64,000 nt of DNA from Hyphomonadaceae bacterium BRH_c29. Lineage in GTDB: Bacteria; Pseudomonadota; Alphaproteobacteria; Caulobacterales; Hyphomonadaceae. The first letter of the stretch is position 1; each line of letters begins with the position of its first letter. The stretch spans positions 95,964-159,963 of the forward strand of contig LADW01000077.1 of assembly GCA_000961695.1 (NCBI GenBank), read 5' to 3'. Under the pieces are notes generated by a model. That model worked only from the letters and a program-made list of their open reading frames with translations, was not told the origin of the DNA and did no database searches. Positions 13,075-55,301 of this stretch are shown here, one piece after another. A program made the translations under genes and the position numbers.

Positions 13075-13509
13075 ATGACCGACGACACCCCCCTCATCAG
13101 CCGCGCTGACCAGGTTTATGCCTTCCTTGGCCGCACACCCTTTGCGCAGGAAATCGGCATGCGCTGTGAGGTCATGGGCGACGAGATGACCGCGATCATG
13201 CCGTTTCAGGACAAGCTGATCGGGAATATCGCGATCAAGGCCCTGCACGGAGGCGCCATCGGCGCGTTTCTGGAGCTGACCGCCATGGCGCAGGTTTTCC
13301 TTGTCGCCGAGCACCTGACCCGCCCGCCGCGGCCGATCAATATGACGATCGACTATCTGCGCCAGGGCCACGCAAAGGACACGTATGCGCGGGCGACCAT
13401 TACAAAGATGGGCCGGCGCATGTGCTCGGTACAGGCAGAGGCCTGGCAGGATGAGCGTTCGAAACCGGTCACGACCTTGCTGGCGCACTTCATGGTGGGC
13501 GGTGAGTAA
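13075..13509 (+). CDS. PaaI-family (hotdog) thioesterase
   Basis: IKALHGGAIGAFLELTAMAQ ... INMTIDYLRQGHAKDTYARATI. Confidence 0.82.
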   Translation: MTDDTPLISRADQVYAFLGRTPFAQEIGMRCEVMGDEMTAIMPFQDKLIGNIAIKALHGGAIGAFLELTAMAQVFLVAEHLTRPPRPINMTIDYLRQGHAKDTYARATITKMGRRMCSVQAEAWQDERSKPVTTLLAHFMVGGE

Positions 13510-13534
13510 GCTGTTGGATAAGCCCGCCTTCAGA

Positions 13535-13576
13535 CCGTATAAAACACCGTATAAACACCATGTAAGGACCGTATAA
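13535..13576. repeat. 42-bp intergenic repeat, copy 1
   Basis: CCGTATAAAACACCGTATAAACACCATGTAAGGACCGTATAA; 38/42 identical to 55260-55301; internal CCGTATAA units. Confidence 0.85.
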
Positions 13577-13593: not shown

Positions 13594-14841
13594 CTAGTCC
13601 GCGCTGACTTCCGGAAAGGCGCGGGTGAGCTGACGGTTCCACTCGAACTGGACCTGCCAGTTGACGTCGGTCTCGTCCATCAGCGCCAAGCGCACAATGA
13701 CGAGATCCCGGCTGGGAACGATCCAGATCGTCTGACCTTCATGGCCCTGCGCGTAGAAGGCGTCCTCCCAGGCAGGTGTCAGCCAGAAGCCCATGCCGTA
13801 GAAATCCGCGTTTGAGCCCGGCGCCGGGCTGCGCGCCTGATCGACCCAACCTTCCGGCAACAGGCGCGCCCCATCCCACACGCCATCGCGCAGGTAGAGA
13901 TAGCCGAATTTCGCATAGTCCCGCGCAGAGGCCCAGACGTTCGAGCCGCCGAGATACGTGCCAGCCGGATCAAACTCCGGCTGGGCATCCATGCCGAGCG
14001 GCTTGAAGAATAGTCGCCGAAACAGAGCCGCTGTCCGACAGGGCTTTGTTTTCTCAAACGCGTCGTTCCATACGTCTTCCGGACCATCATTCGGCAACGT
14101 ATCGGTACAAGAATACAATTCCGGTGCTTCGAGCACTTCCTTCAAACTCAAAGGGGATTCTTGCGGAATCTCATTTTTGCTGACGGCGTCAAGGAGCCGG
14201 TCCTGAACTGCACGCCCGGCCGCATCAAAGCCAGCCGTCGAATAGTTCCAGACCGTGCCCGGCTTGTGCGCCAGCGGGAATTCATCCCGGATGAAACGGA
14301 TGACGTCAAACCGTCCGGGTCCGAACATCATCCGGATCGCGTCGAAGGATTCGAATTCCCCGCCTGCATCTTCCTGATAGTCCAGCCCGTCGGTCATGGT
14401 GATCCATTGGCGCCAGGTGATGGCCGCGCGCGGGTCGCCGACTTCAAAGACGCCGGGCATGGGTGCGTCGATGTCTTCAATCAGGCCGAGTTGGACGGCG
14501 CGGCCGACCAGTGCCGACGTGATGGATTTTGCCAGGCTCCACGAAATATGTTTCGTGTCCGGGCCAAAGCCGTCGCCATAGGCCTCTGCCACAAGCTTGC
14601 CCTTGTAGATGATGACCACACCATGGGTCACGCCCGCCACGTCGTTGCGGCCCCCGGCCATGGCATTGGCGATCAGTTCCCGAACCGCTGCTTCAGCCTC
14701 CGGCGGAATCTCGCCCGTCTCCCAGCTAGATGTCGGCCAGGCGAGGCCCTCGGGCTGCGCCGGCAGCGGCACAAGCGGCTGGGCTGCTACCGCAAAGGGC
14801 ATCAGCAATGCGGCGCACGCGATGAAAAAGTTGCGCACCAT
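13594..14841 (-). CDS. serine hydrolase, beta-lactamase class C/penicillin-binding family, secreted
   Basis: Signal peptide; SWSLAKS (SxxK) motif; VWNYSTAGFD. Confidence 0.85.
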   Translation of the reverse strand: MVRNFFIACAALLMPFAVAAQPLVPLPAQPEGLAWPTSSWETGEIPPEAEAAVRELIANAMAGGRNDVAGVTHGVVIIYKGKLVAEAYGDGFGPDTKHISWSLAKSITSALVGRAVQLGLIEDIDAPMPGVFEVGDPRAAITWRQWITMTDGLDYQEDAGGEFESFDAIRMMFGPGRFDVIRFIRDEFPLAHKPGTVWNYSTAGFDAAGRAVQDRLLDAVSKNEIPQESPLSLKEVLEAPELYSCTDTLPNDGPEDVWNDAFEKTKPCRTAALFRRLFFKPLGMDAQPEFDPAGTYLGGSNVWASARDYAKFGYLYLRDGVWDGARLLPEGWVDQARSPAPGSNADFYGMGFWLTPAWEDAFYAQGHEGQTIWIVPSRDLVIVRLALMDETDVNWQVQFEWNRQLTRAFPEVSAD

Positions 14842-54754: not shown

Positions 54755-55243
54755 ATGAAAGGCGACAAGAAGGTCATCGAATACCTGAACAAGGCGCTGA
54801 AGAACGAGCTCACCGCGATCAACCAGTATTTCCTGCACGCGCGCATTCTGCAGGACTGGGGCGTCTCCAAGCTGGGCGCGAAGGAACACAAGGAATCGAT
54901 TGAGGAAATGGAGCATGCCGACTGGCTGATCCAGCGCGTCCTCTTCCTTGGCGGCCTGCCGAATCTGCAGGATCTGGGCAAGCTCAATATCGGCGAAAGC
55001 GTGCTCGAAATCCTCGAATGCGACCTGAAGCTGGAAAACCTGGCGATCCCGCTGCTGCGCGAAGCTATGGCCTATAGCGAGTCCGTTCAGGACTATGTCA
55101 GCCGCGACCTGTTCGGAAAAATTCTCCACAATGAGGAAGAACATGTCGATTTCCTCGAGACCCAGTTCGAGCTGATCGAACGCATCGGCATCGAGCGCTA
55201 CACCATGCTCCAGTCCGAAGCGAACGCCTCGCCGGGAAGCTGA
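54755..55243 (+). CDS. bfr: bacterioferritin
   Basis: MKGDKKVIEYLNKALKNELTAINQYFLHARILQDWGVSKLGAKEHKESIEEMEHADWLIQRVLFLGGLPNLQDLGKL. Confidence 0.96.
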   Translation: MKGDKKVIEYLNKALKNELTAINQYFLHARILQDWGVSKLGAKEHKESIEEMEHADWLIQRVLFLGGLPNLQDLGKLNIGESVLEILECDLKLENLAIPLLREAMAYSESVQDYVSRDLFGKILHNEEEHVDFLETQFELIERIGIERYTMLQSEANASPGS

Positions 55244-55259
55244 TTTCCGGCCGGCGGCA

Positions 55260-55301
55260 CCGTATAAAACACACTATAAACACCGTGTAAGCACCGTATA
55301 A
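55260..55301. repeat. 42-bp intergenic repeat, copy 2
   Basis: CCGTATAAAACACACTATAAACACCGTGTAAGCACCGTATAA; 38/42 identical to 13535-13576. Confidence 0.85.

Follow-up and report, generated by a model that had tools for sequence, protein, structure and literature searches.

A four-unit direct repeat at fixed intergenic positions in a clade of Hyphomonas: a possible set of chromosome-scale protein-binding sites

The window (the whole stretch of DNA that was analyzed, 64,000 nt) contains two copies of a short element built from four direct repeats, which belongs to a family restricted to a single clade of Hyphomonas. Across that clade, the copies occupy fixed intergenic positions, mostly in the origin-proximal half of the chromosome and more evenly spaced than random, and within any one species their sequences drift together. 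The best explanation that we can offer for this pattern, at a little under an even chance, is a set of sites at which a putative clade-specific Hyphomonas protein would bind and act at the scale of the chromosome, the protein, its binding and the task of the sites being read from the pattern itself. No description of this repeat family was found in the searched literature, including searches for Hyphomonas together with "intergenic repeat".

Architecture of the element

The two copies had been described in an earlier note as 42-mers at 13535–13576 and 55260–55301, identical at 38 of 42 positions and built from degenerate units, and this description held. The distances to the neighboring genes were also correct: the copies lie 25 and 16 nt past + strand stop codons and face opposing stops at 13594 and 55320. 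A gapless alignment of 59 copies resolved each copy into four direct repeats of the unit ACCRTNWAwNN, spaced by 12, 11 and 11 bp, and moved the true start one base upstream, to the ACC at 13534 in copy 1 and at 55259 in copy 2. The units, the associated box of copy 1 and the flanking genes are as follows:

13075..13509, + strand: gene upstream of copy 1, 144 aa, thioesterase-like by eye (ORF)
13513..13522, + strand: associated box of copy 1, GTTGGATAAG; its reverse complement, CTTATCCAAC, is DnaA-box-like
13534..13545, + strand: copy 1, unit 1, ACCGTATAAAAC, 12 nt (59-copy gapless alignment, as for all units)
13546..13556, + strand: copy 1, unit 2, ACCGTATAAAC
13557..13567, + strand: copy 1, unit 3, ACCATGTAAGG
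13568..13576, + strand: copy 1, unit 4, ACCGTATAA
13594..14841, − strand: gene opposing copy 1, 415 aa, beta-lactamase-like by eye (ORF)
54755..55243, + strand: bacterioferritin-type gene (bfr, by eye), upstream of copy 2
55259..55270, + strand: copy 2, unit 1, ACCGTATAAAAC
55271..55281, + strand: copy 2, unit 2, ACACTATAAAC
55282..55292, + strand: copy 2, unit 3, ACCGTGTAAGC
55293..55301, + strand: copy 2, unit 4, ACCGTATAA
55320..56186, − strand: gene opposing copy 2, 288 aa

The repeat units are strongly over-represented in the window, where CCGTATAA occurs six times against 0.21 expected and ACCRTATAA five times against 0.08 expected, all five within copies 1 and 2. The match at a lag of 11 was 0.74, compared to 0.17–0.38 at other lags, corresponding to direct repeats with an 11-bp period. 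When 123 copies were aligned, the columns A-C-C-.-T-.-.-A returned at period 11 with 1 to 2 bits of information. Copy 1 contains no inverted repeat.

Distribution, fixed positions and concerted drift

A profile built from eleven copies in the genome that the window comes from (R1) was searched against that same 3.70 Mb genome and yielded 34 copies, of which 33 had an E value below 1e-4. A set limited to the two window copies would have counted against the earlier note; the search confirmed a repeat family instead. Pattern searches of the same genome had given five and later at least 11 distinct copies, with none for a reversed-pattern control. A broader, gapless profile built from 59 copies (R2) detected 20–31 copies per genome in 10 of the 42 Hyphomonas genomes and no match in the remaining 32, and nine non-bearing genomes searched at E up to 10 gave two weak matches in total. 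On other species, R1 had found 0–17 copies and R2 raised these to 20–24, showing that the weak matches reflected drift between species and not absence. R1 had no match in 24 genomes from other families of the order. A strict-pattern scan of 85,000 species genomes, which overlooks drifted forms of the element, matched only H. jannaschiana VP2, Hyphomonas sp. CY54-11-8 and the metagenome-assembled genome DE15.006, and nothing outside Hyphomonas. An origin from a plasmid or phage was rejected: the phages and viral contigs searched gave no match, and a single plasmid match was at chance level (E = 0.05).

By lysyl-tRNA synthetase identity, all ten bearers rank among the eleven closest genomes (90% or more), and a LysK tree groups them in one supported clade of eleven. 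The eleventh member of the clade, G027, is a 74%-complete draft with no copy and a bfr gap cleanly without the element (G027:C318, L197); either the whole set was lost or there is a problem with the assembly. In G005, a single weak R1 match, possibly a relic, was found at the orthologous sahH position.

To place the copies relative to their neighbors, they were clustered by flanking genes, using flanks from all or most matches in G036, G019, G032, G004 and G028, and from nine in G006. All copies taken from these six species grouped at 25 orthologous positions, each occupied in 2 to 8 species. Copies 1 and 2 of the window are at two of these, seen in five and six species, respectively. The flank formed by the gene upstream of copy 1 is orthologous in G004, G019, G032 and G036, and the bfr gap of copy 2 also carries the element in G004, G019, G028, G032 and G036; the bfr gap of the outgroups showed no sign of it. 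In G036 and G064, inserted DNA parts bfr from its element, which in G036 has remained with the opposing gene after the insertion next to bfr.

Copies beyond the 25 positions were seen only in the window's own genome, where two multi-copy cassettes hold eleven of them and one is an orphan. The first cassette, found outside the window at L021–L024, L027, L028, L044 and L076, with several of these loci close to contig ends, is ≈480–1070 bp long and combines the element with a repeated ORF (MHPALRPYYDHVIPVFWPWLWLNLVRF...) that has no Pfam match. At L024 and L027, the homology downstream of the element runs, by eye, into a transposase-like ORF, suggesting that the cassette spread with an insertion sequence; the truncated transposase-like pieces at these two loci had no Pfam match. 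The second cassette, also outside the window (L048, L074 and L075), is ≈700 bp long and carries a variant element with a first spacing of 11 instead of 12.

Because the extra copies are limited to the cassettes and the orphan, there is no sign of the element moving on its own. Nor was any species-specific insertion found among the copies from the six species; as all of these are at shared ancestral positions, the element is immobile in those species, and we rejected a mobile element on this basis. Thus, where the earlier note had proposed a mobile or selected element, selection stands and mobility, in these six species, does not. A selfish short repeat of the REP or MITE kind, spread in the ancestor of the clade and now decaying, might account for the restriction to one clade, the cassettes of the own genome and the lack of any trace in the outgroup bfr gap. 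It does not fit the lack of species-specific insertions, the absence of inverted ends or the selective conservation of certain columns described below, and we consider it highly improbable. The element resembles REP/BIME and other short intergenic repeats in being short, intergenic and clade-specific, but differs from them in having few copies, no palindrome and no turnover between species. The REP-like function suggested in the earlier note also found no support: there is no hairpin, and one formed between the flanking GC arms was rejected since these arms paired no more than shuffled partners.

The sequences of the copies change while their positions do not. The ACC.T..A columns were held at 0.90 identity while the remaining columns drift: at base 6 of the unit, G000 and G004 mostly carry A, G028 and G006 mostly G, and G036 mostly C. 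In the variable columns, similarity between non-orthologous copies within one species (0.625) exceeded the 0.583 of orthologous copies in other species; with species labels shuffled within loci it was 0.530 (sd 0.003), far under the within-species value. Sites that remain fixed while their sequence is rewritten genome-wide would be expected from a co-evolving binding protein, and protein binding, one of the functions named in the earlier note, is the likeliest use of the element. It is rare for dozens of chromosomal sites to change their sequence together from one close species to the next and yet stay put, and this case could allow the evolution of DNA-binding specificity to be read site by site.

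Gene context and alternative readings

The earlier note considered the element confined to convergent intergenic gaps and acting on 3′ ends. All 25 positions are intergenic (two copies placed in an ORF by a simple gene caller were contradicted by their orthologues), but genome-wide only about 8–9 of them are convergent; seven are co-directional in the sense and three in the antisense orientation, and five are divergent. Promoter or 5′ regions of hisF, dnaK and rluB (gene names here by eye) are included. Placement at 3′ ends only was therefore rejected. The neighbors are, by eye, housekeeping genes such as serB, parE, sahH, hisF, dnaK, infC, thrS, rnd and bfr, and no DNA-binding candidate other than BlaI was obvious by eye among the genes flanking the positions.

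The element might still be a transcription-end signal, such as a bidirectional terminator, a roadblock or a rut-like RNA site. Many positions are 0–80 nt past a same-strand stop, several have an intrinsic terminator directly downstream of the element, and the RNA of the unit would be A/C-rich and G-poor. As the earlier note had stated, the element is not itself a classic GC hairpin/U-tract terminator; hairpins, where present, are downstream of it. Bidirectional termination, however, leaves unexplained the divergent positions and the AGCS/gloA position, where the element lies beyond a separate intrinsic terminator. Together with the three antisense co-directional positions, flanks that form no stem and the lack of any overlapping Rfam model, by which a known RNA family was rejected, this makes an end signal quite unlikely. 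The copies could also be transcribed and bound as RNA, by a protein or a small RNA. The element is strongly polar, with a different, 12-nt unit 1, and the co-directional positions favor sense over antisense by seven to three, but that difference is not significant, 3′ ends, 5′ regions and antisense orientations are all used, and no conserved structure was found; a site acting at the RNA level is thus very unlikely.

If the copies were operators of a transcription regulator, the 25 sites would be its regulon and the neighboring genes its targets. Response regulators of the OmpR/PhoB type bind tandem half-sites ≈11 bp apart, much like the four direct half-sites with an 11-bp period seen here, and some sites closely precede a gene start, a thioesterase-like one in G004/G032 by 11 nt and an alcohol-dehydrogenase-like one by ≈20 nt. 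On the other hand, convergent genes flank about one-third of the positions, and the sites are not consistently upstream of promoters. The neighbors (serB, parE, sahH, infC, thrS, bfr, hisF and dnaK, by eye) are unrelated, and the sites are evenly spaced and in the origin half of the chromosome. We consider a regulon of this kind unlikely.

Chromosomal placement and comparison with known site systems

In the complete genomes, the origin is near hemE/parAB. The sampled GC skew of G036 agrees with this, placing the origin near hemE and the terminus near 2.1 Mb; ParB is 8–9 kb from hemE in G036 and G019, and parAB ≈7 kb from hemE in H. neptunium (PMC6650430). The origin-proximal half contains 20 of 24 sites in G036 (p = 8e-4), 20 of 23 in G019 (p = 2e-4) and 19 of 25 in G064 (p = 0.007), although these tests, like those of spacing, are not independent, since the complete genomes share the same ancestral positions. 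The sites are dispersed and depleted around the terminus, as in site sets of the nucleoid-occlusion type. On the complete chromosomes, their mean distance within the origin arc is 92 and 100 kb, and their spacing is more even than random in G036 (CV 0.53 vs. 0.94 expected, p = 0.0017) and G019 (CV 0.61, p = 0.016). Both placement and spacing could in part reflect where conserved genes lie. There is no replication-strand bias, the strands being mixed. In the terminus half of G036 (L112–L131), GC was ≈0.55–0.60 in most samples, compared to ≈0.61–0.64 in the origin half.

Unrelated housekeeping neighbors, the use of every orientation, avoidance of the terminus and even spacing make action at the scale of the chromosome most likely. 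According to this model of chromosome-scale binding sites, ≈25 sites would have become fixed at ancestral intergenic positions and then been retained, each offering four half-sites aligned along the same helix face through direct repeats 11–12 bp apart. The specificity of the putative protein would drift and all sites would follow. Once bound, the protein might mark the nucleoid near the origin, either for its segregation into the bud or for placement of division, a role like that of SlmA, Noc, RefZ or RacA sites rather than control of each neighboring gene. A more specific version, possible but rather doubtful, is a clade-specific positioning system of budding bacteria, in which ≈25 evenly spaced origin-half sites serve a putative protein of a type new to whole-chromosome action, whose fast-evolving specificity rewrites all sites in each species. 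The absence of the element from 32 of the 42 genomes indicates that the budding life style of the genus does not in itself depend on such a system. To our knowledge, alphaproteobacteria have no known system in which dispersed sites serve site-specific nucleoid occlusion or chromosome anchoring. For H. neptunium, no driving force is known for the passage of the second origin through the stalk and into the bud (PMC6650430). In the species that bear them, these fixed, evenly spaced, terminus-avoiding sites may offer a direct handle on questions of segregation and occlusion.

On present evidence, the element belongs to none of the SBS/NBS, RefZ or ram systems, though it shares features with each. 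SlmA and Noc likewise use a few dozen dispersed sites with few in the terminus: there are 24–52 SBS in E. coli and ≈70 NBS in B. subtilis, not uniformly distributed and scarce in the terminus (PMC4726725). Those sites are palindromes, whereas the Hyphomonas sites are four direct 11-bp repeats, all intergenic and with fast drift at the species level. A Noc-like ParB paralogue was rejected, since G007, G019 and G036 each encode a single ParB_N protein and no second one, so that, apart from ParB itself, a ParB-type binder is unlikely. The RefZ motifs (RBM) of Bacillus have conserved positions relative to oriC across the genus (PMC6657595), comparable to the 25 orthologous positions shared here by up to eight species each, but they are five near-palindromic sites compared to ≈25 direct-repeat sites in Hyphomonas. 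The ram sites bound by RacA in B. subtilis are dense near the origin and tether the chromosome (PMC6593407); the density near the origin is shared, with a putative function here, but ram sites also occur elsewhere on the chromosome and their motif is unrelated. The repeat architecture itself has a different parallel. In parC of R1 (ParMRC plasmids) and in other iteron arrays, head-to-tail 11-bp direct repeats like those of the Hyphomonas element are bound by multiple protomers. While parC is one centromere, the element has four repeats in 25 dispersed chromosomal copies.

A GKTGGATAAG-like box precedes the element by ≈20 nt in 66 of 138 orthologous copies. Searched as [GT]TGGA[TC]A[AG], the box begins 20–22 nt ahead of the first ACC in 57 of the 138 and 32–33 nt ahead of it in nine, and it was not found in the 40 nt downstream of the element in any of them. 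The box reads TTATCCAMC-like on the other strand, and its fixed distance, the likeness of the 11-bp array to head-to-tail low-affinity DnaA 9-mers and the origin-proximal location of the sites would all suit a cluster for DnaA titration or replication control. Such a role is nevertheless extremely improbable: only 11 of the 25 positions commonly have the box (in half of the species or more), base 6 of the unit drifts between species whereas the specificity of DnaA is known to be stable, and the most conserved triplet (GGT) differs from the DnaA core. In the proposed model of chromosome-scale binding sites, the upstream box may recruit a second factor.
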